DNA from: Sorghum bicolor
Lineage: Eukaryota > Streptophyta > Magnoliopsida > Poales > Poaceae
Direction: 5' to 3'
Length of the DNA stretch: 64,000 bases
Assembly (NCBI RefSeq): GCF_000003195.3
Contig: NC_012873.2
Coordinates: 2,813,894 to 2,877,893 of the forward strand
A program made the translations under genes and the position numbers. Below the pieces are notes generated by a model. The model ran no database searches, had not been told where the DNA came from, and saw only the letters and a list, made by a program, of their open reading frames with translations. Numbering within the stretch: position 1 is the first letter of the stretch; each line of letters starts with the position of its first letter. This document shows, piece by piece, positions 11,838 to 59,700 of this stretch.

Positions 11838-14690
11838 ATGGCGGTGGCGGCGGCCCGACGCCTCTTCTCCTTCCACCTCCACGCGCGCCCTCTCGCCGCC
11901 GGTGTTGCCGTCGCGACACCACACCGCCGCGGAAAGCATGATGCGGTCTCGTGCAAGGCCACGGGGAAAACCAAGCCCAAGCCCAAGCCCAAGTCCAAGG
12001 CGAAGGCGGTCAAGGGCGGCGAGCGGCAGCAGAGGCGGGCGCTGGAGGAGCACCTCAAACGGCGCACCCGTTCCGCGGCTTCCTTCGACGCCGACCTGTA
12101 CGGTCGGCGCGCCCACGAGCACCACGTCCCCGTCTTGCTTGGCGAGGTCCTCGCCGCCTTCCGCCGGCCCCGCCCACTCCGTTCCTTCGTCGACTGCACC
12201 CTCGGCGCCGCGGGACACTCCCTCGCCGTGCGTATCCACTCACTCGTTCTCGTGCTCCATTGCTTTTGTTCTACTGCCCACGACGTCTTCGATGCGATGT
12301 TGTTGAGTGCTCTTGCCCGCTTGCTGCTTGACGAAATGCCTCTCGGGCTTTGTGGTTTAGATGATGGAGGCGCACCCGGAGTTGGAGCTGTACATTGGCA
12401 TGGACGTCGACCCATCTGCCCTGGAGATTGGCCGTGGGCACATTGAGACCTTCCTTGCTGGTAGGGAAAGGGAAGCGAATGGAAGGGAAGAGGATGTCTT
12501 GCAGGAGACTCTGCGTGCCTACACTCATGTCAAGAACTTCAAGTACATCAAGCAAGTTCTCGGTAGTGTGGATGAGAGTCTGGCGGTTGGCTCTTCTGGA
12601 GTTGATGGTATCCTCATTGACCTTGGCATGTCATCCATGCAGGTCAGTCATCAAGTTAAAAATATGAATAGTGATTGCAAGGTTTCTGCATTTCCCATTT
12701 GCTGATTCACATTTCATCTTGTTACTACTTCATCAGGTGAATAGATCAAATAGGGGATTCAGTGTACTCCAGGATGGCCCTCTTGATATGCGCATGGACC
12801 CTAAGGTCAGTGTTACTTTGCTCGTCTTTTCTGGTCTAATCTTCATTCTACTCCTATGATAATGTGTGTTCAAAGAGTATTTCTTCCTGCAATACTGAGG
12901 TGTTTTTTAAAAGTTTTAGGGCCAACCCCAGTCTTTTACCTGAAGTCAAATGACGGTTTAAACCACTGCAGCACAGGGGATTAGCCTACCAATCTGAAAG
13001 TTAAGCACAAATCCATCTCAAAACTCAAAACCGACCAAACACATGCTTAAGCAGCAACCGAAACTGTAGAGACTTCAGATATTGATGCCCTCTGCAACAG
13101 CTGACATCGCCACATCGGAGCCAGGAGCTCTCATCGTGAGGGTCTTCTCCATCTTGTAGCTGCGAAATGTCTGCGCCGTCACTTGACTCCAGGAACAGTC
13201 CCATTGATGCATCAGTTCTGAAGCCACAACACTAAATCTGCCAGATTCTTGATATCCTTTATCTTCTTCAACAGCGAATCTTTTTCCTCTGCCTGGCACA
13301 AAATTAGCCAATTCTGTACCATAGCCACTACCTTCAAGAAGAGCAAATCCAAATCCATACCTTTCCACCTAGTTCTCTGGAAGCATAAATCATTTCTAAG
13401 TTTCCAGATACACCAAAGTGCTGCAGAAGTTACCATGTTAAGAACCCCATGCTTTTTATTGCTAAACCAGAACTTTCCTATATTTTCAAGTTTGCTCCCT
13501 ACCTATACTTTTAGAACTTGAGATAATATATGCCAAAGCTGTTGCGCCACTACGCAGTCAAAGAAAAGATGTTGAACATACTCTGTGTATCATTTTTGTC
13601 GAATTAATCAATTTAGAACTTTATATGCTACACTTCCAATGTCCGTGGTTCAATTTTAAAACTGATTTTACAACAAAGAATGATCGTGTCAATTCATGTT
13701 TTTAGTCACTAAACAGTTGCTATGTCCAAAAGGTTCAGATCAACTTTGGTCTTGTCTTCAAGTTGTATCACTCTTACCTATACATGAAATTATACAGGCA
13801 ACTTTAAGAGCAGAGGACATTTTGAATTCTTGGCCGGAGATTGAACTTGGGCGTATCCTGCGTGAATATGGGGAGGAAAGCAACTGGCAATCAGTTCAGA
13901 AGCAAATTGTTAAAGCCCGAGCTACGGGCGGTTTGCACTCTACTGGGGATCTTGTCAAACTAATCCAAAGGATGTGTAGCATCTCAAGCGGTAGGTGTAA
14001 TCTTTCGACGATGTTGCCACTAAAGGTGTTTTTTTTTCCTGTCAATGTATGCATAGGTTCATTTCTTTTGGTTTTGAATGCCAAATTCAGTGTTCTAAAA
14101 TAGTAACGATTTACAGAAGTGCCATGTGGTGTTTTCATTTCAGTGTATTTCTCCTTTCTGCTTGCAGTTTCTCAAGTTTTATTACTATTGTTTTTATGTA
14201 GCAAGTAGCATATAGTAGAATGTATTTCGAAAGAAGCAAAACGAAGATAATTTTGCAAGACATTTGATATAGTTGATAAACTACAGGGCGGCAAGGCTGG
14301 ATTAAGACTGCAACAAGAGTGTTTCAGGCCCTCAGGATTGCAGTTAATGATGAACTCCGGGTTCTAGAAGATTCACTCCATTCATGCTTTGACTGCCTAG
14401 CGACAGGTGGCCGTCTTGCTGTAATCTCATTCCACAGTCTGGAGGACAGAATTGTGAAGAAGACTTTCTTGGAGCTCATCCATGGGGGTGAAGCAGATGA
14501 TGAAGAAGACGACAAAGATGACCTGGCGCTCACTGACATCGTAAATGAAGATGAACCATGGTTTGGCCAGAGAGTGCAAGGAAGGAATGGAACTGTCCTC
14601 ACAAAAAGACCAATAACCCCCTCGCAAGAGGAGGAAAAACTAAATCAGAGGTGCAGAAGCGCAAAGCTTAGAGTTATTCAGAAGAACTGA
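11838..14690 (+). CDS. CMAL: organellar 16S rRNA m4C methyltransferase (RsmH/MraW family)
   Basis: SAM-dependent enzyme that N4-methylates a cytidine in the decoding region of bacterial-type 16S rRNA; the plant version is organellar. Exons: 11838-12227, 12361-12642, 12737-12805, 13798-13990, 14287-14690; 445 aa. Hallmarks: SAM motif I as [12 protein letters not shown] (about residues 115-127), [48 protein letters not shown], and the C-terminal [18 protein letters not shown]. The first 45 or so residues are Ala/Arg-rich without acidic residues, consistent with a transit peptide. An acidic loop (about residues 375-395) is inserted before the C-terminal stretch. ATG 11838 has a good context (GGCAATGG); an in-frame ATG at 11703 would add 45 residues and is less likely. 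The symbol follows Arabidopsis CMAL, a plastid protein; a mitochondrial paralogue cannot be excluded. Confidence 0.92.
12960..13580 (-). mobile_element. LINE 3'-end relic in RsmH intron 3
   Basis: On the minus strand the sequence decodes to the zf-RVT and post-zinc-finger region typical of plant LINEs: [17 protein letters not shown] near 13530-13580, then [17 protein letters not shown] near 13380-13430. It is broken by a stop between these blocks. The relic is antisense to the host gene and inflates this intron to about 1 kb. Confidence 0.65.
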
Positions 14691-15986
14691 ATAATTTGGG
14701 ATAAATTTTGAAGGATTCCTGAGCACATTGGTGTGTAATTTTTTATAGCCAGAGAAATGTGAATGGATTCTCACTTGTGTGCACAGCCAGCTGCAGTCTG
14801 GATCAACAGAAAAATTGCCTCAGTCGGATGTGGTGCTATTTATCCTCGACAAGAAATCTAGAGGCTTAGGTTAGTCAAAAATCTCACTGTATCTGCATCA
14901 GTTTCTGAACTCCATTCACGTATATCGGCTCATGTACTCTGTAAACCATTCACTTGCAAGACACGATAATCACTTTAGGCCCCATTTAGATCCTTGGAAT
15001 TGAAATATATTAATAGTTATAATTTAGATATAGATTAATTAAGCTAATATGGTTGTATACTATTGTCGGCCATGCGATATTTGTATACTATTGTCCGCCA
15101 TGCGAGGGAGATACTTATGTGCTGTATGTGTTGTACTTGTACATGATTAATATACTATTTAACTGGTTTAACTCGCATGCCATTTTTACAGTTGAACTTC
15201 TTATACTTGTAGTACCTTGGTCCCCCAAAAGATAACATTCTAGATTTAGTCAAAGTCAAACTATAAGCTTGAGTAAGGTTACAGAAAAAATGTTGACATA
15301 TATGACTTCATATAGGTATTACTGGAATCTAGTGATAGTTATTTGTATTGATAAATATTAAAATTGTTTTAAAAAATTCAGTCATATTTCAAATCATTTG
15401 ACTTAGCAGCATTTCTTTTGGGGTGGAAGAAGTATTAAGATGGATTGTCTTGCATATCACATAGCAATTTTTTTTTAAAAAAAACATTTTTCTGTTACTG
15501 AGAAGACAACTGAAGGCGTGAACGAGAAGTGACGTCGGTGAGGCCACGTCATCCCATCGCGACGCACACAGGCGGCCACGTCTCCTGGCAGCACCACCAC
15601 TCTTCCCCTCCCAAAAATTTCTCCTCGCCTTCGTCAAACGATCGCGCCCGCTTCGTCGTCGCTGTCGAGTTTGGTGTCCGCCTCTGCCGCGAGAGCTCCA
15701 GCCCCACACGGCCCCGCAGCAATGGCAGCCACAACCTGAGCTGCCACTGCCAGCCGGCGCAGCTGCCACGCGAGCGCTTCCCACTCCACACGTGATTTCA
15801 TTTCAAGCCGGCGGGAATGGTGGTGGATCGGAGGGCTCCGTAGATTCTTCTTCCCGACCTCCTCCAGGCGCTTGATAAAGCCGGCGCCGAGCAGCCAAGA
15901 ATCTCTTGGGACAGAACCGTACGCTCCTCCCTGCTCGCTCCGATCGGCTGGTCTCCCGACTCACGAGAGCGAGCTCGCGGTGGATA
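14691..15986. other. RsmH 3' UTR, Stowaway element and HCF173 promoter
   Basis: The first 250 bp or so are a plausible RsmH 3' UTR. An AT-rich spacer with a TA-flanked MITE at 15215-15432 follows. From about 15500 the sequence becomes GC-rich and CT-rich, consistent with the HCF173 promoter and 5' UTR. No convincing gene lies here. Confidence 0.6.
15215..15432. mobile_element. Stowaway-like MITE
   Basis: The ends CCTTGGTCCCCCAAAAGA and TTCTTTTGGGGTGGAAGAAG are imperfect inverted repeats. TA dinucleotides flank both sides (15213-15214 and 15433-15434). There is no coding content. Confidence 0.6.
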
Positions 15987-18900
15987 ATGGCCGCCATGTC
16001 GGCGCCCCACTGCGCGTCCTCCTCCTCCTCTGCATTCCTCAGCCTCCCGCGCAGCGACGGCGGGCGGCGCTACGGCAACTCATGCCACTTCGCTGCCAAC
16101 GCTAGGCTGGCGACGGTGTCCGCCACGCTCGACAAGGAGACCGCGGCGGCGAAGCCCCGGAGGTCCCGCCGGCCCAGGAAGGCGACCAAGTCCGGCTCCA
16201 CGGCGCTGCTCGCCCCCGACGAGCCCACGGAGGCCAAGAACGGTGTGGCCACCGAGGCACCGAACGGCGGCCTCGGCGGTAGGGGTATGGTGGCGCTGGA
16301 CGATGTGATCGTGAACCCGGTGGGGCTGGGCCGCCGGTCCCGGCAGGTGTTCGACGAGGTGTGGCGCAAGTTCTCGCGGCTCGGCCAGATGTCCAGCGCC
16401 TCCTCCGCCGCGGTGGCAGAGCAGGACCCAGCCATCCTCTTCCGCGGCGGACCCATGTGCGACTTCACCGTGCCCGGCGCGCAGGACACCACCGTCCTCG
16501 TCGTTGGCGCCACCAGCCGCATTGGCCGCATAGTTGTCCGCAAGCTCATGCTCCGCGGATACAACGTCAAGGTACTTTTATTCTCTTCTCCCAATTGGCT
16601 CATCTTCAGTTACAAATTCTCTTCTCCCAATTGGCTCATCTTCAGTTACAAAATTTCAATGGCTGTCATTGCAACCGATGAAATGGGTCCATTGGCGTTC
16701 ATCTTCTTGTGCTTGGTTTTGATCAGTTCCTTCTGTGCTATCTTACAACAGGCATTAGTTAGGAGGAATGACCCAGAAGTGATCGACATGCTTCCGAGGT
16801 CTGTGGATATTGTGGTTGGAGATGTTGGCGACCCTTCTTCAGTTCAAGCTGCTGTGTCAGGTTGCAACAAGGTAATTTACTGTGCAACCGCGCGGTCCAC
16901 TATCACGGGGGACCTCAACAGGGTTGATAACCAAGGAGTGAGGAATGTTACCAAGGCCTTCCAGGTACTCTGACCTAAACCTCATCTGATTCTTTCATGT
17001 TATTAATGTACTATATGGTCTATGATATCCTGTTGCTGCTAAATATACACTGAACTGTGTGAGCTATCAACTATTGTTTGCAGGATTACTACAATCAGCT
17101 GGCCCAGTCAAGGGCTGGTAAGAGCAGCAAGAGCAAACTGTTGATTGCTAAATTCAAATCTGCCAAATCTGTGAAAGGATGGGAGGTGCGGCAGGGATCA
17201 TACTTTCAGGATATCTACCCTTCTACTTCTAGATTCGAAGGTGGCACCGATGCGTCATTTGAATTTGCAGAAAGTGGACAGGCTGTTTTCTCAGGTATCA
17301 CTCTCAGAAATGTACACAGTACACAGCCATTTGATTTGTTTAATTCTTTATTGAAATATTCTATTCTCAGGGTTTGTTTTCACAAGGGGTGGGTACGTTG
17401 AAATCTCTAAACGACTTTCACTTCCTCTAGGTTCCACCCTAGACAGGTATCATAAGCTTTTTTTTTTAATTTCTGCTTTTTTATATGTGCATGATGTCAT
17501 AAGGTTTTGACTTGTATACACTGCATATTCTATCTGAAGGTATGATGGCTTGCTTCTTTCGGTGGGTGGAAATGGAAGATCATATGTTATCATTCTTGAG
17601 ACTGGTCCGCTGGCTGACACCTCACAGAGCAAGAAGTATTTTGCCCGGATGAACACAAAAGTTGGGTTTTGTAGGGTAAGTAAGTGAAGTTTGATGATAT
17701 ATCCTTTGTATGTGGTTCTACATTGGCCAGAAATAAATGAAGAAATGTCTTGTTTGTGCAGGTAAGAGTGCCGTTTTCATCTTTCCGGCCAGTAAACCCA
17801 CAGGATCCTCCACTGGACCCGTTTCTTGTCCACACACTAACCATTAGGTTTGAACCAAAGAAGCAGGTCAGTACAAGCAATTCACCATTATGAATAGAAA
17901 CTAATTCTGCTGAAGTATTGGCCTACCGGTTACTAACCAAATCCTTGTGCAGAGACCTGGTGATTCATCTGAAGGAGCTAGTGACCAAAGAAACTTTGAG
18001 CTCAAAATGGAGTTCATAAAAGCCTTGCCGGTAAGGATTTGCTTTGTGCAACCTGTTGATATAATCATTGTTCGTTAGACTTTCCTTTGATTTCCTTATG
18101 TTTGTTGCGATTATTTTGCAGAGTGGTCAAGAAACAGAAATTGTACTGGTCTCATGCACAGGCTCAGGAATTGAAGCTAATAGGAGAGAACAAGTCCTGA
18201 AAGCAAAGAAGGTACTTGACGCACATAAACGTCTAAACTATTGTTGATGCACACCTGACGCAAACATTAATCAGCTTTGTATGGATTTTTCTAGGCTGGA
18301 GAAGATGCATTGAGGAGATCTGGCCTTGGATATACAATTGTACGGCCAGGTCCACTGCAGGTACGACAACATGAGATAGGATAGGAGCACTGATTCCTTT
18401 TCGTAGGGCTGATCAAACAGCATGCGAATTGCTTTAATCCATGCCGTATTGTAACTTGGCATTCGTTTTGCTATTCCAGGAAGAACCTGGCGGTCAGCGT
18501 GCCTTGATCTTCGACCAAGGGAACAGGATCTCTCAGGTGATTGAGCATGAATGAAGTTTTACTGCGCTATTATATTGTAAGAGTCTCCGGATAGTGGCAT
18601 GCCGTTCGATGTGTATGCTATAACCGCTGCTACCGTCCAATTTGTGGTTGATGCAGGGCATCAGCTGCGCCGATGTAGCAGACATCTGCGTCAAAGCGTT
18701 GCACGATTCGACCGCGAGGAACAAGAGCTTCGATGTAAGATCCTCTAGTCGTCTCCCCTGTGATTTCTCTTGTGAGTTCGTTGGTGGTGCAGCAAGCAAC
18801 TAACCTGGACGCATGCATCATCTTGTTTGTTCAGGTGTGCTATGAGCATGTTTCAGAGCAAGGGAGCGAGCTATATGAACTTGTAAGCCTACTGTCTCAT

Positions 18901-41170: not shown

Positions 41171-41414
41171 GGCCTTGTTTAGTTCCGAAAAGTGAAAACT
41201 TTTCGGAACTGTAGCACTTTCGTTTGTTTGTGACCAATATTATCTAATTATAGACTAACTAGGATCAAAAGATTCGTCTTGTGATTTACAGCTAAACTGT
41301 GTAATTAGTTTTTATTTTCGTCTATATTTAATGTTTAATGCATGTGCCACAAGATTCGATGTGACGGGGAATCTTGAAAACTTTTTGGTTTTTGGGGTGA
41401 ACTAAACAAGGCCA
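41171..41414. mobile_element. GGCC-family MITE, full-length
   Basis: The 244-bp element has near-perfect terminal repeats GGCCTTGTTTAGTTCC and GTGAACTAAACAAGGCC, flanked by ATT on both sides. It is the cleanest copy for defining family ends in this window. Confidence 0.8.
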
Positions 41415-42439
41415 TTGTATATGTACATGAGAAAGTTACGCCGTGACGAACGTTGAATCTGCGTATGATATAGCCGAGGCTGCGATCCAAAAGTTTCCAA
41501 ACACTCTCCTCCCAGGTCAAACGGCAAACACTTAGCTTGCTTGGATCCTAATAACCTGGCGCGAGCGCCGGCGGTGGCGCGGCTCCTGGCAGCTGGGCGC
41601 CTTCGTGCCTAGGCGGCTGACTGCCCTGGGCCCAGGGCCCGAGGGACGACACCGCGGCGGGCCGGCGGCAGCCAGGACCCGAGTCAGGGGAGGCCGGACG
41701 GGCTGAGCGGCGGCGCCCCGGCAGCCAGTACACCGGATTCAGTGATTCGGTGAGGATTCAGTCATTCAGTTTAAACACTAGATCACCGGCATCCCTAGCG
41801 TGAAAGAAGAGTACGTTGCTGCCCATTTGCATGTTCCATTGCTTTTTCAAGAGCTAGCAGGTCTAATGGAAAAAGAAATCACTAATAATGGTGAAAAGGG
41901 ATCCCTCACACTCATCTCCCTTTCCCTTCTTCTACCCTCAATCAATGTTTAGGAATTTCCACTTTTCCGCTTCTTCAGTCGGCTCACTTGTCTTCTTTTT
42001 CTTTTGCTTGGCTTCAGGGGTCTATGGTTTACCTTCTCGCCTTCTCTTGGTTCGTCCCATGGATCCTTGCATTTGATAATGAAACAATCAGAATTTGTTG
42101 AATTGAAATATGTGAATTCTCATTTCTTTACGTGGTTTTGGCAACTATCAATTATTTCTTTCCTCGGCTTCTTACACGGGCCCTAAATGATATCTAGTAG
42201 GCAACCTGGGAACTACATTAGCTTAGGGGATCGGGTAGCGAGTGCTCTCCTCGGCAAAGCACATGATTGAGATTGGAATTATTGTATTGTGAATAAAGGC
42301 ATGAAAGAAATTCTATAGTAGTTAGGTATTCAAAAAGATATAAAGATCTATGATTCAGTTGGCTTTTTATTTATAGTGTTATATTGCTATTAGCTAGTGA
42401 TTGTAGTAAACAAATTTTCCGATAAGGGATAATCGGAGG

Positions 42440-42790
42440 TAAGCCTCGACGCTTCATGGCTAGTTTTTAGTTTGATGAAGTTAGATGGCTTGAATATAGT
42501 GTGGAAGAAGATGGTCAAGATGCTGCGTTCTGTTTTATTTGCTATTTGTTCAAGCACAAAATTAATGCTGATGAAGATGCTTTTGCGAAAGAGGATTTAG
42601 AAATTGGCACATGAGAACGAAGATTACTAAAAATTGTTTGTTCTATGACTAGTTTTAACAATATGGCTCAAGAGAGAGACAGTTCCTAAAGCATCAACTG
42701 TTGAGAAGTTTGCTGCAGTGATTGATAAGGAGAAGGTTTTTTGCTTGGAAGGTGGGAATACCCAAGTTTAAAATTTTGGCTCCGACAGTG
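42440..42790 (+). pseudogene. hAT-type transposase/TTF zinc-finger relic
   Basis: One frame gives DEVRWLEYSVEEDG followed by DAAFCFICYLFKHK, the signature of the TTF-type zinc finger found in hAT-derived proteins and ZMYM1-like proteins. It ends at a TGA after about 45 further codons. A second piece (SVKASTVEKFAAVIDK-like) appears near 42690-42730 in another frame. It is a fragment, not a working gene. Confidence 0.55.
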
Positions 42791-43015
42791 TATAAATTTC
42801 AGCCTTGCCTCGACCTCGAGGTGACAGGCTCGCTCAAGCTTGGTTGGTTTACATCCATAGAATGAGTCTAACTACACAAGAACCATACTTAATTTAAGTA
42901 AATAAAGAAAAGTACAACTATTTTGTTGTTGGTTACCACAAAACTACAACTTTATAGTCAGCATATCAATCCTGGCTCTTGTTTGAATGGTACATTTACA
43001 GATACGTGATTACAA

Positions 43016-44607
43016 ATGGATTTCGAAGCTACTAAGCACAATCTCTTGGAACGCATGCTACTTGATGCAAGTGCAAAACCTACAGACTTGCCGCTATCAC
43101 TTCTAAAAAGTATCACAAATGGTTTCTCTGACGATAATCGAGTTGGTAGTGGTGGCTTTGCAGTTGTGTACAAGGTAAATATATAAATCTATATACTGCC
43201 CTGAATCTCAGTTTCGATTGATCTCAGAACTTATGTGCATGCTCACAAGGCAATGCCCTTGCTTGCCACTGCAGGCAAAACTTCAGAACGGGGAAGTAGC
43301 CGTGAAGAAACTGTCACAAGCGCTTGATCTGGACGAGAAGAATTTCAAAAAAGAGGTTAGTTGTCTGATGACGGTAAGGCACAAGAATATAGTGCGTTTC
43401 CTGGGATATTGTGCTGATACACAAGGGAAAATCTCTAACTACGCGGGCAAGATGGTCATGGCAGACGAACGGGAAAGGTTGCTCTGCTTTGAGTTTGTGC
43501 CAAATGGGAATCTTGAACGGTATATCGCTGGTATGTTTCTCTACATCTTATTTATATTGGAAAAATCCATAAACCACAAAAATGTTGGATGCTTTTGCAC
43601 TTTGACTTTTGCATCCAGGATTAAAGAAGTTACAATCTCATTCCATTTATCTTTTCCTTTTTTATTAATGTATAAATAAACTACTAATAATCCTAAAAAG
43701 GACTTCAGTTACCTATTTACAAACATTAAAACTGGAATCTCAATTTGCAGATGCATCCCAAGGACCCGAATGGAGTATACGCTACCAATTAATCAAGGGA
43801 ATTTGTGAGGGTTTGCATTATCTTCACCAGAACAAAATTCTGCATTTGGATCTCAAACCTGCAAATGTATTAATTGATCACAACATGGTGCCGAAAATTG
43901 CTGATTTTGGTCTCTCAAGGCGCTTTGATGAAAACCAAAGCCATGCTATAGCTTCAAATCTAGTTGGAACAACGTAAGTTACCTAAGGGTCCCCATAGCA
44001 CATCTGTTTTTGCCAGGCACGATCAATGCTGCCTTCTTTTTGCTCTTGAATTATTGCTCGTACCATAAAATTTTCTTTGCAGGGGATATTTGGCACCAGA
44101 ATTCTATGGACGAGAAATAAGATCAGAGTTAGACATATACAGTCTTGGGGTTATAATCATAGAGATGTTGACAGGACGGAAGGGGTACTTTGAGATCAAG
44201 AATGTAAGAATTAAGTATATAAAGTTGACAATTATGATATCCACCACCCCCACCCCACACACACCCTTTTTGTTTGTCTTTTTTCCCCTGAGCCAGTTTT
44301 ATAATATTTTTCTGATTTTCTATCTTTTCTTGAATTGATTATTACAGTGCTAGTTCTTTATTTGACCCTAACTCATGATCACATTTTCGATTATTAGGTA
44401 CTTGAAAGTTGGAGTGGTAGGTTTGGGACATCACAAGGAGACACACGGTTGGAACAGGTACGAGTATGCGCTGAAATAGGCTTACAATGCATTGACTCCG
44501 ACCCAAGGAAGAGAAAAACTACACGGTGTATACTTCAGAAGCTTGATGAAATGGAAAGTAGGTGCGGTTTTATTTTAAATGGCATCAGTACTTCGCCGGT
44601 GACACAT
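43016..44607 (+). CDS. RLCK-type serine/threonine protein kinase
   Basis: Cytoplasmic kinase domain of the large grass-expanded RLK/RLCK group; the partner is unknown. Exons: 43016-43174, 43275-43530, 43751-43973, 44083-44203, 44398-44607; 323 codons, all GT-AG, phases consistent. Motifs: [10 protein letters not shown] (glycine loop, missing its last Gly), EVAVKKL (ATP-anchoring Lys), [11 protein letters not shown] (catalytic loop), IADFGLSRR (DFG) and GYLAPEF (APE), then C-lobe ILQKLDEME. The Arg of the usual HRD triad is Leu, so this is a non-RD loop; [10 protein letters not shown] is common in this group. There is no signal peptide or membrane segment. An in-frame TGA six bases upstream of ATG 43016 supports the start. 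No stop follows the last exon before a good donor (CAT|GTAAGT), so the protein must continue or read into the intron (see 45783-49361). Confidence 0.85.
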
Positions 44608-45782
44608 GTAAGTTTACTCTGGCACATAGTAGCGTGCTCTCATGAACATCATTTTTTGAGCTTACCATTTCCGCTATTATTGTTCTTCGAGTTGGCGGAT
44701 AAGTGAAAATGATTAGTTATTAAGAATACTAAAAAAGGTTTCAAAAAAAAAAGAATACTAAAAAAGGTTCTACCGAGCTAGAGCAAGGTGAACCTAAGGT
44801 GCCAAAAGCCCTGTCTTAGTTATTTTTTAAGTACTTGGTATTCTGGCATTTAGAGACTAATAAATTAGATAAAATTTAATACAGGATAAAAGAAATGAAC
44901 CTTTCTGAAAATTAAATACAAAATAACTACATATGTGATTTTGCAAAACTCTATCTGATAACAACCTAAATGACTGACAGGTCGTGCGCTAGCCAAGTGC
45001 ACGACCTCTTCTCGTACATGTGCCACGCCAGAAGAGGTACGCCTAATTAGAGTTCCAAGGTTTCGGAAGAAGTACGCCAGTCAATAGTAATCATAGCAGG
45101 GATTTAGGGCGGTAGCCACGACATAATGCGTGAGAGAGCTGTGGGTGGAGAAAGGCAGATGTGGATGGAGATTGGGAGAAAGAGTAGAAAGTTATTTCCC
45201 TCCATTTATTAGTGACCCAGTACAAGAAATTATGCACTGTGGAATGAAGTTTCTATCTACAGTGTCTTACTGCTTTGACAACTATATATGTAAATTTTTA
45301 CCACATACAATGCATGGTTAAAGTAATTTGAGTAGGTTTCTTCAACAATGAACGGAAAGTGTAGTTTTGTGATAGTTGTAATGTGTACTATTCTGCCTAG
45401 TTTTGGTAATCTTTACTTAATAGGATAACCAAGTGTAATTTCAAATTTTTACGCTAGTTGCCTTTATCAACACTGCTGCAAAAACCACACCTTGACCCCC
45501 GGATCAACCCCTGCAGCCTACACCTAACACCCTTTGCCCTAAAAAGAGTATAATTATAGGTTTGAACTAAGTCAAACATTTTTTAGTTTGACTATATAAT
45601 TATAGAAAATGGAATCAACTTTGTGTCTCCTAACATGTATTACTATAAAAATAAATTTAATGATTTGATCTATTTATACTATTTTTTGCATCATAAATAC
45701 TATCACTTTTTATGTATACTTCTCGTAATTCCTCCTGTTTGTTTTTTCATTCTAATAATTACTTTGCAATTATTATTTTTAG
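44608..45782 (+). other. junction interval between kinase and MED25-like exons
   Basis: This 1175-bp interval begins with a good donor (CAT|GTAAGT) and ends with a T-rich tract and acceptor (TTTTTAG|GAACC), so it can be a single intron. Read-through of the donor would add 32 codons to a TGA at about 44704. No clear poly(A) signal cluster or new promoter is recognisable, but neither can be ruled out. Confidence 0.6.
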
Positions 45783-48700
45783 GAACCAGTAATGATATCG
45801 CCCAATGTTTCTGCACCTGCTTTATCGCACATAACACCTATTTCAAATGTGGCTTCTGAAGGAGTATCAGCACTGCAAACTTCATCACCATATCTTATTC
45901 CACAAGAAGCAAATTTTGCAAATGATACTGTGCAAGAACACAAACCTGTAAAAAATCCTGTTCAACTGCCAGTACGAACTGGTAGTCATGGTAGCCTCAA
46001 CAATCTGCCACAGGTCAGCCTGACGAACTCAACTTCTTTAGGAGGACCACCTCGATGGCTCGATGGGACTGTCTAACATGGGCAACCATACAGGTTCACA
46101 TGTCAAACACAGAATTGAATTCCATTGATTTGACTAACAAGTCTTCCATGAATATGCCTATTGGGCAGCATCCCCATGCCCAACAGCAGCCACCAAACTA
46201 TGTCAAAATTTGGCAGGTAAGGATTTCCTCTTGTATTTTAGCGTTTGCGTATACACAATCAGCGCACAATCACAATTTTCAACTTCTCCTAGTGATATGA
46301 GTTTTTCTTAGTATTTTAGCATTCAAAATTTAGTATAAACTTTTCCTACTAAATGTCCCTTAGTGAGAATTTTCTAGTACTATGACTAGTGGTAGTATTT
46401 TATTATTAATTAAAAACACTAGGATAACTTCACTATTTTGGTAGTGACGTGCCTGCTCCGTGGCAGTGACAACTTAGAAATGGGCAGACAGATTTTTAAA
46501 ACTCAGTACTACTCCGTAAATCGTAAGAGAAGTGCACAACACTTGACTAATACGAGCCTTATTAGGGCCTGCTTGCCATGTTACTGGATATATAGGGTAT
46601 AAGAGTATCTCCAAGAGTTCCCAATAAAGACTTCTAATCTAGGATTTTTGGCAAGAATAGAAAAAATCCATCTCCAAGAGTTTTCAATACCACATTTCAA
46701 TCTTTTAGCACTTGGAAAAGAAATCAGCCAACGCGCGTAAAGATCTGCGCATCTACCGTGCGCATATCGGTCTCACAATCTAAATGCGAAAGGGTGTGAA
46801 AAATAATAAAGAGTAGGAAAGAGTTCTTAATGCAAATGGATAAGAGAAAGAATATATAAAAGTGGTTGAAATAATTTAGAAATAGTATAGGATTTCAAAT
46901 ATAAAATTGTCTTTTATATTTTTTAGGAGTGAATTATATTGGAAACCCTTGGAGATGGTCTTATCTATTCCTCCCAATATTTCTTTAGGATTTGGAAAAT
47001 GCCATGTTTTTTTGAAATGAATTATTAGGTACTCGTGGAGATGCTCTTATATTGCATAGGTTATTTTGTACATTGGTCATAGAGGTTTTGAACAAATGTT
47101 TATCATATGTTAGGGAACTTTATCTGGGCGAAGGAGAGGAGAACGTGTTCACATTTGTCATCTCGAAGTAAGTACTTTTTTGCATTATTTCACTCCCAAA
47201 ACATTATGCAATATTTTGTAAAAAAAAGGATTCCACTATCTTTTTTTAAGCTGCAATGTTACTAGCTAATTGAATGATTTGACATTTCTTTGCTCTATGT
47301 ATGCTTGTATGAAATTGAAAGAAAATAACTTTTTCCTTAAAAAAAGCTTGCATGGCTATTTTTCTATTGAACAGGCAAGCTATATTTCAGGTGCCTGAAT
47401 TTTAAGGTGATTTGAGTCAACACTTTTGTACAACTAACTAGTATAAGTAAATTATTACTTTTGTGATTCATTACTTGTCTTTGTGTCATAACATACCAAA
47501 TTTTTGTCCTTATCCAACTATAGAAATGATTATATTGTTAATTGTCTCTGTGTCAGCAGATGTCAGATTTTATAGGTTTTATGATTTTGTTTAACATGTA
47601 TTTTTATTCTTCGAACAAAAAATTACAGATTACGCCTACAGAAATTGTAACTGACTAAAGCTACAATTTTAATATAAAATATATACAATAACCATTGCAT
47701 GAAAGGAAGCTAACATTCAGGCACCTGAATCTTAGCAAGTCCCTTATATAATAATTATATTGAGAAGAAACACAAGGGGCAAGAGTCCTTACAGTTAGAA
47801 ACATAGACCGACCCACTTCTTAATTTGTATAACTAAATCTTGTGTTATCTTTGACACATTAACTTGCTAGACCATTAATGGAGATAAATTAGCTTCCAAG
47901 AAACTCCTAAACGCTCAATCATGATTTCTTAAAGTTGAGGTAGAAAAATTAAGGCCGTTAAAACATGGGTTGCATCAATTGCTGCCAGTGCAAATTTTCA
48001 GTCATGGTTATTTTCCACCTTCAAAACTTGAATCTAATCCTCAGTTTGGTTGTATTTAGTGTTCTCCATTGCTAGGTTCTTTTACTATTCATAGTATGAA
48101 CACATATATTCATTGAATTATTTGTCTTTTTATTAATTCTCACATTAGCATATGTCTGACAGGCTTATAGGAGAGGAACAATGCCTGAAATGTAAGTGTT
48201 TGAATTATTGCAATAATCCTTGCATTTAATTGAATTTGCATTTTTCATTAGCATTATTGTTTGTTGATTACTTTGATCGAGATCTGTAATCTTGCCATTA
48301 GCCGTTGGTGTTATCCTTGTGTTAAAAGAAATGACTTGTGATAAGATTTTTCATAGTATATATCGTGTTGAGGGTTTTGTAACCCACTATGCCATGCACG
48401 ATGTGCATGATGCACTCAATAGATATACTAAAGAGCCATGCACAATGTTGAGGATTATTCTTTTTCAAATGGGACCCTTTTTCTGATATTATTGAATTGT
48501 GCTTCCTAAGTAGGAAATTGAAAACTCTACTTTCTATATGCAGACATGTAGCGGACTGGCCAGAAATTATGGAGATTAGTCGCATGATAGATGAGAAGCA
48601 TATGGACATGTTTGTATCTCAAGCTCGCCCTTTTTAATGCGATCTTGTTGCATTATCACACTTGCGAAATGTTGTGAACAATGTCTTTTCTGTGCAGAGA

Positions 48701-49361
48701 TTATTGTGAAGTTGCAGACTTTTTAACATTCGGGGTTTCAAAACAGCATGGGTTTCTTGGACAACTACAAGAGAAAAAGCTGGTCAGTGATTGGTTCTAA
48801 TCTTTTGATACCTGTGTTATTCAGCTATCTTTCATCTACAGTCATTTAATTCTTTGCAGACATTTTGTACAATTCTAATGCCTAGTTGGTCCTCTGTTTC
48901 AGTGTACTGTGATAATATTACCTTCACAAACTTTGCTGCTAAAATGGTCTGAAAAAGTAGGCCGCCTGATTGGCATGCTCTTCCCTGGGGTAATCTTGAT
49001 TGTGGCTAAATGAATATATATACTTCATCTCAGAGGTCAATATAATCATCTGCATTTACTGAAATATTGCCTTTTTCTGCAGGACATAGAGGTATTGAAA
49101 ACACCGATCTCAAAGTCAGCAGCTAGTAATATATCAGCAGCAGCTGCTGCTGCAGTGCTGCTACACCAACAACAGCAGCTGTTGCTCCAGCAGCAACACA
49201 TGTATATGCAGCAAGGCCTCCTTCACCAGCCGGAGATGCAACCAATGAAACACCAGCATGAAAGTAGACGTGCCGCTCCAGCAATAGCAGCTACAGCAGA
49301 TGATGCAAGGGAAATTTTGGCTGAAAAGGGCCGGGCCAAAGTCGCCAAACAGGATGCCTGA
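45783..49361 (+). CDS. MED25 (PFT1) C-terminal part with ACID domain, probably fused to the kinase
   Basis: MED25 is the Mediator subunit that binds transcription activators; only its C-terminal half is present here, without the N-terminal von Willebrand A domain. Exons: 45783-46013, 46094-46216, 47114-47167, 48163-48191, 48544-48609, 48698-48782, 48903-48989, 49083-49361; 318 codons including TGA. Recognisable MED25 blocks: NVSAPALSHITPISNVASEG, YVKIWQGTLSGRRRGE, DWPEIMEISRMI, HGFLGQLQEKKLC and LPSQTLLLKWSEKVGRLIGMLFPGD, then an Ala/Gln-rich tail. The first exon opens in phase 0, the phase in which the kinase exon ends. Sequence at 46014-46093 looks like former MED25 coding sequence, carries an 8-bp duplication and an in-frame stop, and must be spliced out to keep the frame. 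Either part of a chimeric gene of about 640 aa or a transduplicated pseudogene. Confidence 0.75.
46599..47055. mobile_element. Tourist-like MITE in MED25-like intron
   Basis: The ends GAGTATCTCCAAGAG and GTGGAGATGCTC are imperfect inverted repeats of the Tourist consensus, bordered by TAA and TTA. An internal CATCTCCAAGAG/CTTGGAGATGG pair suggests a smaller nested or duplicated copy. Confidence 0.5.
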
Positions 49362-49760
49362 GGAAGGCTTCCTATTCCTACCGTCAAAGGGTTAGAGATG
49401 TCACCTTTAATTGGCAGTTTTAGAGAGGGGACTTGTGTAAACTTACATGATGGATAATACAATCTATTCCAAAGTGATAACATATCATTCTACATTTCTA
49501 CTGGATTGATCTAAATCGACTGGAAGCGTAGTTAATACTTGCATTTCGCATGTCATACTAGAACTTGCTCTATCAAATTCACACATCAGATTTCGTCAGT
49601 CGCAACATGGTGATATCTATAAACTCAAGTAAATATCTTAAGATATTGTCTTGATGCATGTCCGTCTCATAGCATATGGGTGCCAACATTCTGTGTAATG
49701 CTAAGTAGAGTAGTAGCAAACAACCAAATTGTTTGTGTTGAGATTGAGATTCCCAATCTT

Positions 49761-50495
49761 GAGCATCTCCAACAGTTTGTCAAAAACTGTTTGGCAAATC
49801 TTGACTTTTGACAAGTTGATAAAAAGGATGGCAAGTCAAATATTTGATGATCTCCAATAGTTTGCCAAAATGACTTAACAAACGTAAAAAACGGGCCCAT
49901 AGTTACCTGTTTGCAACCGACAGACTCTCCTTCTCCCTTCCACCGGATCGCGCAAGAAGACCGGTGGAAACCCTCTTGTGCGCTAATAGAAAGTTTCTTG
50001 TATACCGGTGGAAAGGAACCTGTGCGCTAGGAGAAAGTTTTCTGTAGACCGGTGGAAAACCTCTTGTGTGCTAATAGAAAGTTTCTTGTATACCGGTGGA
50101 AAGTTTATTGTTTACCAGTGGAAAGTTTCCTGTGCACTAGTGGAAAGTTTTCCTGTGCGGCGGGGCACACCTTCAGATCGAGATCTCCGGCTGGAGCACC
50201 TGGTCTCGCGACGGTCCTTCAAACGACGCCGGTCTGGGAGGAACAACGAGAGCGACCTGAAAGACGACGGGCCAGAAGTTTCACTTGCCGTGCGGGAAAG
50301 GGAAAGAAGAAGAGGGATCGCGCGTTGCCAAGCGAGTCCGCGCGGCGGATAGCTACCAGCGCGGCTCATGAATTTGCCAAGCGTGTCAATTTGCCAAATG
50401 TGTTTGCCAAACTGTTGGAGATGCATTTTTGCCCCTTTTGCTAATTTTTCAAGGATGCAAAGTGTTTTTTGCCAAATGTTGGAGATGCTCTGGTA
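49761..50495. mobile_element. Tourist-like element enclosing non-MITE sequence
   Basis: The ends GAGCATCTCCAACAGTTTG and CCAAATGTTGGAGATGCTC are inverted repeats. Secondary inner copies of the ends (GATCTCCAATAGTTTGCC near 49850 and TTGCCAAACTGTTGGAGATGC near 50404) suggest duplication of the termini. The middle holds a 22-bp minisatellite and a GC-rich segment, so it may be a MITE that captured foreign DNA. Confidence 0.55.
49961..50158. repeat. 22-bp minisatellite, nine units with higher-order order
   Basis: Units start at 49961, 49983, 50005, 50027, 50049, 50071, 50093, 50115 and 50137, exactly 22 bp apart. The general form is C(C/T)(G/A)(G/A)TGGAAA...CTTGT. Units alternate between CCGGTGG-type and CTAATAG-type, and units 1-2 resemble units 5-6, giving 44- and 88-bp higher-order periods. 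Confidence 0.9.
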
Positions 50496-51079
50496 GAAAT
50501 CAGGGTGGACAAGATCTCTCTATCTACCTGACCAGGAATGCGGGGGATAAGAGGTGCATGCGGTGCGAGCCTTTCTGGTGGTTGGCGCAGAGAGAAAGAG
50601 TGTCGCTTAGCGAAGATCAACAAAGACCACAAACCACAGCAGATGGCAGGTAAACCTTGTTTTAGTAAATGGAAAAGTTCCGACCTCTACTATCGCACAC
50701 AGCCAAGATTGTAGGTAAACCTGTTGGTCTAATAAAATATTTAGAAGCTTGGGTTTGGAGCAGCACCAGTCCAAGGGTCGACCTCCTAGCCCTAAAAGGA
50801 CTGAGGACAAACAAGGGGAAAGGATGAATGGGATAGGGGAGAGACAGGACTGACATATAGAAATCAGATTCGAAGATTTACAAAGAACAAGACTCTACTC
50901 ATGGCGACAGTTACGATGCATGGAAGAAGAAATAGACAACGAAAAAGGTACTAAACAACAAGTTGATACCTAGTGTTGCTTATTGTTGTGAATGACAGTA
51001 GATAAACGACGAAGACCAAAAGATCAAATCACAGCGGAGACACAAGATTTAACGTGGAAGTCGCTTTGCTTTGCTCCGT

Positions 51080-51579
51080 CAGAAGACGGCCTTTATAATA
51101 TGCAACTAAATTTGGAACATATTCAATAGACTCCACCTTGAGACAAATTCATCTTGTAGCATAAATCAACACCTTCGTCCTGAACATAACAAGAAAATAC
51201 CACTGGCGCCAAATAGCCTCTTGGGCTAATCTACTAAACCAACTAAGCTTGAGCATAGCTCAAACTTAGCAATAGGAATAGGTTTAGTCATCATATCAGC
51301 AGGATTATCATGAGTATTGATCTTACATACCTTTAACTTACCATCATCGATAACATCATGAACAAAAATGGTACTTGATGTCAATATGTTTAGTTCTCTC
51401 ATGAACATCCGATCTTTGGTAAGGTAAATAGCACTTTGACTGTCACAGAATAAGTTAATGCAAGAATCAACTCTACACAGCTCAACGCACAGACCTTTTA
51501 GCCAAATTAATTCCTTGTACGCCTCAGAAATAGCCATATACTCTGCTTCAGTTGTTGACAAAGCAATAACAGATTGCAA
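51080..51579 (-). pseudogene. Ty1/Copia retrotransposon 3' relic (RNase H)
   Basis: The minus strand decodes the Copia RNase H end: [22 protein letters not shown], then [13 protein letters not shown], a frameshift inside the usual FHERTKHI block, then [13 protein letters not shown] and NPADMMTKP (51579 down to 51226). The sequence below 51226 may be the start of the 3' LTR, whose end I cannot place. Confidence 0.8.
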
Positions 51580-51686
51580 TGTAGGCCTCGAACTTACACA
51601 CTCTCCTAAGTTGTATGGTTTTTGAGTTCGGTTTTCATTTAAAAAACTAAGCGTACACTTGCCTTTTTTTTTTCTTTTCTTCGTCT

Positions 51687-51934
51687 AAGGCCTTGTTTAG
51701 TTCCCAAAAAATTTTGCAAAATTTTTCAGATTTTTCGTCACATCGAATCTTTAGACACATGCATGAAGTATTAAATATAGACAAAAATAAAAACTAATTG
51801 CACAGTTTGGTCGGAATTGACGAGACGAATCTTTTGAGCCTAGTTAGTCCATGATTGAACAATATTTGTCAAATACAAACGAAAAAGCTACAGTGTCGAT
51901 TTTGCAAAATATTTTAGAACTAAACAAGGCCTAA
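51687..51934. mobile_element. GGCC-family MITE, full-length, TAA flanks
   Basis: It starts GGCCTTGTTTAGTTCCC and ends GAACTAAACAAGGCC, with TAA on both sides (TCTAA before, TAATA after). It holds all family blocks in order and serves as the reference copy for the interrupted element at 10664-11245. Confidence 0.8.
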
Positions 51935-55190: not shown

Positions 55191-56382
55191 ACCTGGCTCG
55201 TCGCTTCCCGCCGCGTGGGTCGTGGCTTGGGCGGGAATTGCCTTGCGCTCGCGTTGTGGGTTGGGCGGGAATCATCGGACCGTGGTTTCTGTCCGATCGT
55301 TCGGACGGAAAGATTCCCGTCAGTCTTCAGCGTCTACATGGAAAAAGAGAACGATAGTGTTAGCGCCTGAACGTGTGGACAGACGCCCGCGTGCTGCACT
55401 ACATTTCGGGCTCCACATGGGGCCCGTGGCGTTTGAGCGACAAGAAAGGATGGGTGCATGGCGCCTACAATTCAGATGGACCCAGCCACAGTGTCATACG
55501 GATGCCTTGCCGGCACCGAGACACAATGCAACAGAAGGTGGATCGGAGAGGAAAGATGCAACACCTAATCTACTTCTGAATCATCTATAGATACAACAGT
55601 TGCAACATATTATGAAGACAGTTGAAATACTTGAAAAAACACCTATAAACACTTGAACCCCATTGAAACATACGCAACATTTCAAATAAAACACATGCAA
55701 CATATTTGTGAACATATACAATATCCCGATAAACACACTTGTAACATATGTTCAGAAAACACGGATGAAACATAAACATTTCAAACACTCGAAATATACG
55801 GTTGTAATATGCCTCTGAAACAATTGCAACATATACAATATCTCCTGATCTACTTTTGCAGCACCCATATAAACACAATATGGATCTATGCCCGTTTCTT
55901 TAAGACTTTGTATGACATTAGCACTGTCTGAAGCTAAACCGGATGGACTTGGAGCGTTAGATCAGATGCCAACGCTAAACTTTCCCTATATGCAATCGTC
56001 TCGGGCTGTTTCAATATAAGTAATACCTCCAAAGAACCACACCCGGAACTCCCAAGAACTTCCTTGCCTGATCACGAGCAACAGCTGCCACAGACGCTTG
56101 ACCCAAGTTCTTGAAGATATATTGCTACACATCAACATTTAACCTTTATACATATCCCGCTGGAGGTGGTAACCACTTCGGTCACCTGGTCTGGATCGAA
56201 CCCTTCACCGCCTTATTAGACACTCTAGAAGATCAGCCATGTAGTTGTTAACAAAGCTATATGTTGATAGCGAAGATATTCTCGTGTATAGCTTTTCTTC
56301 TCGCTTACTTACCTTACCAGATAGCTCATATCCTCACCACCACTCGAACCAGATCGCCATGGGATGATTTGATCAAGGCAGC

Positions 56383-56414
56383 CACACACACACACACACA
56401 CGGGGGGGGGGGGG
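56383..56414. repeat. compound microsatellite (CA)9-C-(G)13
   Basis: Nine CA units at 56383-56400, one C at 56401, then thirteen G at 56402-56414. It lies about 300 bp upstream of the DiT2 start codon, so inside or near its promoter. Confidence 0.95.
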
Positions 56415-56714
56415 ACATGGTCTGGTGGTACCGTAATTGGCAAGTCAATACCCTTTGTGCGACGGACCACCCAATGCAAGGCACCAACGGCGGCCCAGCG
56501 GCCCAGGCCTGTGCCTGCCGCTCATCTCATCTGTATCGTAACCCACACGCATCGACACTGTCAAGTTAGCCCAAAAAGCTTTCTAACTTTGCTTCTTCAA
56601 TCCTCGGCCACTCCCGCCACTTTCCGCCCGATTACGCGCTTCAAAAATGGTCGCTCTCCCGTCCGGGGACTTGAACCAACACCCAGCCACTCGCCACTTT
56701 CCGCGGCCGCGCCC

Positions 56715-59700
56715 ATGGAGAGCAGCATCCGCCTCGCCGACACCCTCCGGCCGTCGTCTCTCCCGGCACCGGCGTCCGCCCACCTCCGCCGCCGCCACCT
56801 CTACCTCCACCGCCTCCCCCGCACCTCCTCCTCCTCCTCCCTCTTCTTCTCCCCGTCGCACCATCATCGCCTCTGCCCCACGCCTCGGCATGACCTCCTG
56901 CAGCCTCTCGCCGCCGCCGCCTCCGGCGCCGCGAAGCTCGTGCCCGCCTCCCCGGCGCCAGCTGATTCTAGCCCCGAGCCAAAGCCCTCGGGCGCGAAGC
57001 TCGTGCCGCTCGTCATCTCCCTCGCGGTCGGCCTCGCCGTGCGGTTCCTGGCGCCGCGGCCCGCCGAGGTGAGCCCGCGGGCGTGGCAGCTGCTCTCCAT
57101 CTTCCTCTCCACCATCGCGGGGCTCGTGCTGGGCCCGCTCCCCGTCGGCGCCTGGGCTTTCCTCGGCCTCACGGCCGCCGTCGCCACGCACACGCTCCCC
57201 TTCGCCGCCGCCTTCGCCGCCTTCACCAACGAGATCATCTGGCTCATCGTCATCTCCTTCTTCTTCGCGCGCGGCTTCGTCAAGACGGGCCTCGGCGACC
57301 GCGTCGCCACCTACTTCGTCAAGTGGCTCGGCAAGAGCACGCTGGGGCTGTCCTACGGGCTCGCCCTCGGCGAGGCCTGCATAGCGCCGGCCATGCCCAG
57401 CACCGCCGCCAGGGCAGGGGGCATTTTCCTGCCCATCATCAAGTCACTCTCCCTCTCGGCTGGGAGCAAGCCCAACCATCCGTCTTCACGGAAGCTCGGA
57501 ACATATCTGGTCATGTCGCAATTCCAGGTAACATAATAGTGTTTTTATTTCCCAAAACAAAAAAAGGTAATCAAGTAGCGCAGTTCGTCAGATATCAATT
57601 GATGAACTTGCTGTTTGATTTTAAATTTATTAAAATCATGGCTGTTGGATTCGCCACCATTGGCATGTGACTCTTACTAGGATCTCCAAAATCCTCAAAA
57701 TCAAACTTAGCAAAATTTCAAATGTTGAAATGTGGTTCTTGGGGGTGAATATTATTAGATCAGTTTCTGTGTACGCATGATTGGTGAATGTTCATATATA
57801 CTTCTTCTGGTATGTTATACATCTTGATGTTTTATTTTGCTTGACAGGCAGCTAGTAGCTCAAGTGCTTTGTTCCTGACTGCTGGGGCACAAAATCTGTT
57901 GTGCTTGAATCTAGCAGAAAAGTTTGGTGTTATTATCGCAAATCCATGGGTAACATGGTTTAAAGCTGCTAGTTTGCCAGCTATTGTTTCTCTCCTAGCA
58001 ACGCCATACTTGCTATACAAAATCTTTCCCCCTGAAATAAAGGACACCCCTGAGGCCCCGGCATTGGCTGCAGAGAAGCAGAAGCAGATGGGTCCGGTGA
58101 CTAAAAATGAATGGGCTATGATTGGCACAATGATTCTTGCAGTCGCGCTATGGATTTTTGGGTAAGATTATCTGTCTGAAGAAGATCATCTCATAATGTT
58201 GACTCGTGATCTCAATACCACCCCTGCAGCCTGCCACCTATTTTACTATATGGTTCTTTTATAAATAAAAGATCTGCATGGACTTTCGCAAGCTGCTCCA
58301 GAAAGCCTCATTACACTTATCTTGGAATGATCCAATTAATCTGAAAGCAAATAATTGGTTGATTCTCTCATCCTTAAGTTGCCATAGTGCACTGTCCCAT
58401 TCATATAGTCTGTTTCCCACTCTTTGTTTGCCTTTCCTTGCTCCTTGCTCACTTCTAATATGAACGAAACGAAACTTGGTGGTCCATATGCATCCTGTTA
58501 TTGATGACACATGTTTTCTTTTTATTTATCTCTGATGATCGTATTCATCTATATCCATCACTACATGTTTAAATACTTGAGAGACCCATCGTAGATCTTT
58601 AATCCCTAATTTCAGATATTGGTAGCTACTACAAATTAGGCAGAATGCTTTAGAACACTATTTATGAGATCTATGCATTGTGCCCTAGAAATTGTACTCT
58701 GGTGTGCTTTTTTGTGTCCCATGGTCATGATGGATATGTTTATTTTTAAAAATAAAGGTCACGATGGATATGTAACCTGTTGCAATTTCTGTTCAGGGAT
58801 GCTATTGGTGTGTCTAGTGTTGTGGCTGCAATGCTTGGGCTCTCCATTCTTCTCCTGCTTGGTGTGCTGGACTGGGCTGATATCTTGAATGAGAAATCCG
58901 CATGGGATACATTGGCTTGGTTTTCAGTTCTGGTTGGGATGGCAGCACAACTCACAAGCCTGGGGATTGTTTCTTGGATGTCAAGCTGTATTGCTAACCT
59001 GCTTCAGTCTTTCTCATTGAGTTGGCCTGCAGCATTTTGTGTTCTTCAGGCCTCCTACCTTGTGATCCATTATCTATTCGCAAGTCAAACTGGGCATGTT
59101 GGAGCCTTGTACTCTGCATTCCTGGCTATGCATGTAGCAGCAGGCGTTCCTAGTGTGCTTTCAGCACTTGCTTTGGCGTTCAACACAGATTTGTTTGGGG
59201 GAATAACTCACTACAGTAGTGGGCAGGCAGCGGTATACTTTGGAGGTAATTTCATTAGTCCAGCTTCTGTTCTGAACCTAGTTTCCTTATTGGTTATGTT
59301 AGATATGTGTCAAAATACATGTACAGTTTCGATTAGGTTGGATTTGTGTTGTATTAGAGGCTAAGATAGAGTTGGAGTCGAACTCTAAGTCCTATGCGAT
59401 CATAAATATGAGGCCACCCTCAGGGGCGGATCTAGGATAAGAACAAAGGGGAGGAGGCTAAACAATGAAGATTTAGTGCTAAAGTTAGAGATTAGTGATG
59501 ATTTTGAGGCTAAGTAACAGTGATTAAGGTAGAAAATCATGCTCATAGGGGGGCTGCAGCCCACCTATCCCCCCCTTGTGGATCCACCATGGTCATCCTC
59601 TTATATCCGTGAGACGACTTGGCGGCTGGTTTGGGCGACGGTGAGTGAGATCACCCAAACACTGGTGCGTAGGAGCACCCACAGTCATGCCCCGAGGATG

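Follow-up and report, generated by a model that had tools for sequence, protein, structure and literature searches.

A possible kinase–MED25 chimeric gene of the kinase-fusion-protein type in sorghum

In the available parts of the Sr43 and Lr9 papers, kinase fusion proteins are described as kinases carrying varied domains and are proposed to combine a signalling kinase with an integrated decoy, and the Sr43 paper regards resistance genes of this kind as apparently confined to the Triticeae (PMC10260397; PMC10260399); the Pm4 paper, in the text available, describes them as specific to cereals (PMC12830362). By that same text, exons 1–5 of Pm4 encode the kinase and a foreign domain required for activity comes after it, a kinase-only construct being inactive; Pm4 also binds its effector and phosphorylates it, with phosphorylation alone insufficient (PMC12830362). 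For MED25, the published excerpts at hand report that the ACID domain binds MYC and ERF factors whereas the VWA domain binds other partners (PMC5467580), that ACID binds DREB2A (PMC10796322) and that the rice immune factor OsNPR1 does not bind OsMED25 (PMC10213043). Across the literature excerpts searched, we came across no grass example of a pathogen protein binding to plant MED25. Neither a MED25–kinase or MED25–ARIADNE chimera nor a sorghum kinase fusion was found among the papers listed in searches of a mainly non-subscription collection. Kinase fusions are a known class; the ACID partner and the sorghum setting described here appear to be new.

Within a window of 64,000 nucleotides of Sorghum bicolor DNA (the whole stretch analysed, C4:2813894-2877893), 13 exons on the forward strand, from 43016 to 49361, can be joined without a frame break to give 640 codons followed by a stop, with GT...AG at all internal borders (Table 1). 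As a preliminary description of the locus had claimed, five kinase exons and eight MED25-derived exons lie on one strand with canonical borders, and exon 5 of the kinase ends in phase 0 without a stop, at 44607|GTAAGT, with the first MED25 exon opening in phase 0 at AG|45783. Its further claim of about 640 codons ending in the Ala/Gln tail of MED25 stood for the frame and length, but the extreme end is out of the MED25 frame. Likewise, every MED25-derived exon has GT–AG borders, as it had said, but one 80-nt intron among them is an exon in intact MED25. Poly(A)-like hexamers are present in 44608–45782, between the kinase and MED25 exons.

Table 1. Features of the candidate chimeric gene, in positions of the window.
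Feature	Positions	Strand	Basis or remark
Kinase part	43016..44607	+	323 aa, receptor-like cytoplasmic kinase; PF00069 E 9e-49
Kinase exons 1–5	43016-43174, 43275-43530, 43751-43973, 44083-44203, 44398-44607	+	Exon join, GT–AG borders
Splice donor GTAAGT	44608..44613	+	Val-Ser kinase end in relatives; next in-frame stop 44704-44706
Genomic copy of MED25 3' half, introns included	45720..49439	+	blastn against L008
MED25-derived exons (8)	45783-46013, 46094-46216, 47114-47167, 48163-48191, 48544-48609, 48698-48782, 48903-48989, 49083-49361	+	Exon join, GT–AG borders
MED25-derived linker exon	45783..46013	+	85% identical to MED25 DNA
Proposed 80-nt intron	46014..46093	+	Exon in intact MED25; +4 and -5 nt indels
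MED25-derived exon with deletion junction	46094..46216	+	In-frame 354-nt deletion at 46108/46109
ACID-coding exons (107 codons)	47114..48989: 47114-47167, 48163-48191, 48544-48609, 48698-48782, 48903-48989	+	PDB 8y4l_A match, model fold
Last exon, Ala/Gln-rich tail	49083..49361	+	End read in non-MED25 frame

A second sorghum assembly carries the kinase–MED25 join in its annotation, and the in-frame model of a kinase joined to an ACID domain without VWA, as first put forward, recurs there. This protein (P0001; BDA96_04G039500, 640 aa) came first when the MED25 half was searched against proteins and is 99% identical to the window protein (3 differences in 640 residues, at 9, 483 and 566); its entry holds six member sequences on three contigs, and it is named as a kinase-domain protein, the displayed part of the name being without MED25. 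Because the join is annotated in a second assembly, we rejected a chance joining of open frames. Disabling mutations in sister genomes, named at the outset as a sign against the chimera, were not seen in P0001, the sole sister protein at hand. Inspected by eye, P0001 alone carried a kinase Pfam domain among the 120 matches listed of 421 in the MED25-half search; the same join had been suggested for a search in related grasses, and no kinase–MED25 protein from another genus was found among those matches.

The kinase half matches PF00069 at residues 39–300 (E 9e-49), has the lysine, HLD, DFG and APE motifs and deviates at 4 of 91 near-invariant columns in a comparison with 22 chosen relatives. 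By the Pfam match, motifs and conservation, it is one apparently functional kinase domain, and no second kinase copy was found in the 64-kb window. Its nearest relatives are grass receptor-like cytoplasmic kinases (best 120 of 2,317 matches), and in the tree it adjoins Digitaria P0123 (329 aa, 70% identity), on a branch of 0.26 as against 0.16 for P0123 and inside the range of other relatives. Counted by eye, 17 of the 120 kinase matches listed of 2,317 have an extra non-kinase Pfam domain, including Rmg8 splicing variant 1 (P0199; 58% identity over 93%); from their accessions, we take these extra domains to include C2, MSP, NB-ARC, winged helix and cullin, among others. On sequence grounds the kinase thus falls in the grass family of wheat Rmg8, whose members carry diverse extra domains.

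The locus shares with wheat Pm4/Rmg8 (kinase plus C2 domains) its kinase family and, as far as the available text describes Pm4, a kinase on exons 1–5 followed by a foreign domain (PMC12830362). It differs in its partner, which is C2/transmembrane there and MED25 ACID in sorghum, in lying outside the Triticeae and in that a role in race-specific disease resistance, one mark of a kinase fusion protein, would here be a prediction. Sr43 and Lr9 of wheat resemble the predicted sorghum join in that genome rearrangement brought a kinase together with a domain unrelated to it; according to the accessible portions of their papers, the partners there are DUFs and vWA, and both genes were proven by mutants (PMC10260397; PMC10260399).

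Digitaria P0123 ends in ...LIHVSS and Miscanthus P0161 in ...TTHVS, the only ends fitting that pattern among the 120 kinase matches listed of 2,317. The window reads ...VTH and then GTA AGT TTA CTC, and the usual kinase stop is absent. Aligned with the window, the two ends thus place the Val-Ser site at the donor GTAAGT and point to loss of the stop that followed; judging from this alignment, the fusion donor is the former Val-Ser codons of the kinase.

In this genome the intact MED25 gene (L008) lies on C2, and MED25-like places in the genome comprise seven matches, three on C2, three on C5 and one at the window locus. By blastn against L008, the homologous stretch starts at about 45720, in an intron past the VWA-coding part, and extends to about 49439 in the 3' UTR, and the window protein has no PF11265 match, which bears out the earlier statement that the MED25 piece lacks its N-terminal VWA domain. 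The copy has the linker, ACID domain, intron positions and 3' UTR of grass MED25, but differs in its missing VWA half, a 354-nt deletion, a frameshifted 80-nt former exon and fast amino-acid change. Relative to L008, the 354 nt were lost from a long MED25 exon with the frame kept, and the intron at 46014–46093 is a former exon with +4 and -5 nt indels. Because this intron excises exactly the frameshifted piece, the argument from splice sites is weak there.

At its extreme end the tail departs from the MED25 reading frame, and the C-terminal motif of MED25 can be made out when this DNA is read in a different frame. An alternate-frame, DDARED-like ending is also found in the predicted proteins P0013, P0021, P0070, P0075 and P0081, so the frame of the tail need not be new damage. 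P0013, P0021 and P0070, all MED25 proteins from a second lineage of panicoids, end in an Ala-rich stretch whose frame differs from the Gln-rich one, perhaps by mis-annotation.

Introns homologous to those of MED25 led us to reject an RNA-derived copy. The MED25 part had also been described as a transduplicated fragment; it is a DNA copy of a gene that is intact elsewhere, but no flanking terminal inverted repeats were found. A search of 42000–51500 for such repeats of at least 16 nt, which old decayed ends could escape, gave no convincing pair around 45720–49439, and a Pack-MULE or other TIR element as carrier was set aside. MITE-like elements lie at 46668–46958, inside the intron 46217–47113, and at 49761–50490, downstream of the gene, with inverted repeats of 91% over 22 nt and 82% over 33 nt, respectively; the downstream element contains a tandem repeat with 44-nt spacing (49958–50155). 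A dispersed repeat occurs at 41171–41413 and 51670–51893, and also at about 1547–1805 of a C5 locus, L010 (77%).

Elsewhere in the window, open frames on the forward strand at 818–2626 and 8234–8650 carry TAZ (E 6.9e-16) and ZZ (E 4e-9) zinc fingers, which we take to be those of CBP/p300-type (HAC) acetyltransferases; HAC acetyltransferases have a known link with MED25. A reverse-strand frame at 51229–51684 presumably encodes the final part of a copia-type retrotransposon polyprotein, judged by motif. Ordinary forward-strand genes encode an MraW-type methyltransferase (13684–14687), an NAD(P)-binding protein (15879–16970) and a sodium:sulfate/dicarboxylate-type transporter (56373–59361).

That this locus is a chimeric gene of the kinase-fusion-protein type, a class to which the preliminary description had given no name, is a tentative reading, which we put at somewhat below even, and we rate the rival of an annotation-only join as equally likely. 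According to that rival, a kinase ending alone at 44704–44706 (355 aa) merely neighbours a decaying, 5'-truncated MED25 copy, and gene-finding software joined the two because the frame happens to stay open. Substitution rates favour it. In a codon model of three sequences (the window copy, L008 and L010), dN/dS on the copy's branch was 1.01 for ACID (107 codons) and 0.95 over 220 codons, neither value distinguishable from 1 (p 0.97 and 0.86); the other branches, at 0.26 and 0.41, differed from the copy's branch (p 0.009 and 0.02). The preliminary description had treated a ratio near 1 for these exons, compared with the intact MED25 of the same genome, as a sign against the chimera; values of 0.95–1.01 fit the pattern of a pseudogene, or else of relaxed or diversifying change, as read from the codon alignment. 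The frameshifted former exon excised by an otherwise unknown 80-nt intron, the alternate-frame tail, a last exon with 16 gaps relative to MED25 (11 of them not multiples of 3, in Gln-rich repeats), the missing promoter-proximal half and VWA, and the unfused ends of P0123 and P0161 also suit two neighbours. Further points that weigh against the chimera are the poly(A)-like hexamers between the two parts, the lack of such a protein from other genera among the 120 matches listed and, as regards a bait, the OsNPR1 result and the absence of a MED25-binding pathogen protein from the excerpts searched for grasses.

Against this, the proposed exons are depleted in indels and stops, and their decay does not equal that of the introns except in 46014–46093 and the last exon. 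In an alignment to L008, with the in-frame 354-nt deletion kept out of the counts, two 3-nt indels are the whole tally for the seven proposed MED25 exons that precede the last, as against 28 indels in five aligned introns, 20 of these changing the frame; the longest MED25 introns, 46217–47113 and 47168–48162, and the last exon were omitted. About 23 exon indels would be expected on the copy's branch, its share being estimated from the three-sequence codon model, and the resulting probabilities (Fisher p 8e-7; Poisson P 3e-8), like that for the absence of stops in 220 codons (P 0.01–0.03 under random substitution), are rough because exon borders were chosen with the open frame known and intron counts mix both branches. 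When 46014–46093 and four possible compensating gaps, which reflect aligner placement in exon 48698–48782, were added, 8 indels stood against about 26, a weaker contrast that nevertheless persists (Fisher 0.0005, Poisson 5e-5). The intact join in the second assembly and the retention of all inherited splice sites likewise speak against mere neighbours. As read from sequence, the evidence on function is split: dN/dS is pseudogene-like, but the exons are indel-poor and stop-free and ACID is kept.

The window ACID aligns over 120 of 121 residues with the MED25 chain in PDB 8y4l_A (E 2.9e-38), and Pfam gave no match in the ACID half at E 0.001. Its 65% identity to the canonical ACID is unevenly spread, with 14 of 14 residues kept in QHGFLGQLQEKKLC, 5 of 12 in GYRSGTASETLA and 3 of 13 in AQEHMNNKQYVGK. 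An AlphaFold model of P0001 (48 rows, mean pLDDT 66, pTM 0.53) has the kinase, a stretch with pLDDT below 50 at 315–436 and a folded unit of seven strands and three short helices at 438–547, which indicates that the ACID sequence and predicted fold survive. A Foldseek search with the whole model was uninformative on the ACID half because only IRAK4 kinases stood in the best 50 of 1,999 rows.

A different use of this ACID, which we consider unlikely, is that the chimera is made and acts in the plant's own signalling, its ACID competing with MED25 for MYC/ERF factors or recruiting the kinase to such factors, without any role as pathogen bait. The full retention of QHGFLGQLQEKKLC suits this idea, as does the combination of an ACID domain, the ERF- and MYC-binding part of MED25, with the absence of VWA, which binds other partners in MED25 according to the text available (PMC5467580); however, the strong change in the other two segments and a dN/dS near 1 sit poorly with a conserved activator-binding site.

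A 19-row protein tree grouped the MED25 of sorghum with that of maize (98% support) and left the window copy outside this pair. Topology tests on 18 of the 19 rows (a misannotated Digitaria row was dropped, and the maize row stops early in ACID) rejected a recent copy of sorghum MED25, sister to it alone, by AU at p 0.002, the stricter SH test giving 0.086; a position as sister to sorghum plus maize MED25 was borderline (AU 0.06), and one inside a clade of ARI8–MED25 fusions was compatible with the data (AU p 0.35). On the AU test (p 0.002; SH 0.086), the copy appears to be older than the sorghum–maize split, yet its frame is still open.

In these ARI8–MED25 fusions, almost the same half of MED25 sits behind a signalling enzyme unrelated to it, an ARI8-like RBR E3 ligase rather than a kinase; the fusions occur in several genera, and their MED25 part starts at least one exon further upstream. 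One lies in the same genome (L010, G000:C5:69678001-69688000, at about 2447–7684), and similar predicted proteins occur in Panicum (P0036), Paspalum (P0045), Urochloa (P0075) and Miscanthus (P0081). Two predicted proteins of Paspalum vaginatum, P0002 and P0003, have an RBR-like N-terminus and two tandem ACID domains. Descent of the window's MED25 part from such an older panicoid fusion and not from MED25 directly, an origin compatible with the other readings, is improbable: the fusions' distribution, the AU placement and the alternate-frame tail common to P0075 and P0081, which raises its odds, stand against ACID DNA closer to canonical MED25 (77% vs 75%), better blastn pieces with canonical MED25, a sorghum ARI copy without linker residues present in the window, and the same tail in the MED25 proteins P0013 and P0021. 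Together with the E3 ligase fusions, the kinase–MED25 join suggests that the MED25 3' half was placed behind signalling enzymes more than once.

The presence of a five-exon kinase of the Rmg8/Pm4 family ahead of a foreign domain is what favours a kinase fusion protein whose bait resembles MED25. We infer the steps from transcript to function. The last Val-Ser codons of the kinase (GTAAGT) would serve as splice donor, and the MED25 copy would provide the linker, the ACID domain and the 3' end, giving an active-looking kinase, about 120 disordered residues and a fast-changing ACID. The kinase would then signal and the fused ACID act as bait, as proposed for Sr43 and Lr9 and in a manner related to Pm4/Rmg8. 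Because ACID binds MYC/ERF activation domains in jasmonate and defence signalling, an ACID-binding protein, whether a pathogen protein or a MYC/ERF-type factor, would reach the kinase and could be phosphorylated there. The idea of a non-Triticeae kinase fusion protein with a Mediator ACID module that is free in its amino acids but kept in frame, as bait in an arms race over MED25, is more doubtful than the chimeric gene as such.

If the chimeric gene is real, kinase fusion proteins, a young class of plant immune receptors known mainly in wheat and its relatives, would extend to another grass subfamily, MED25, a jasmonate hub, would be a possible pathogen target, and a natural kinase–ACID construct would be available for testing.
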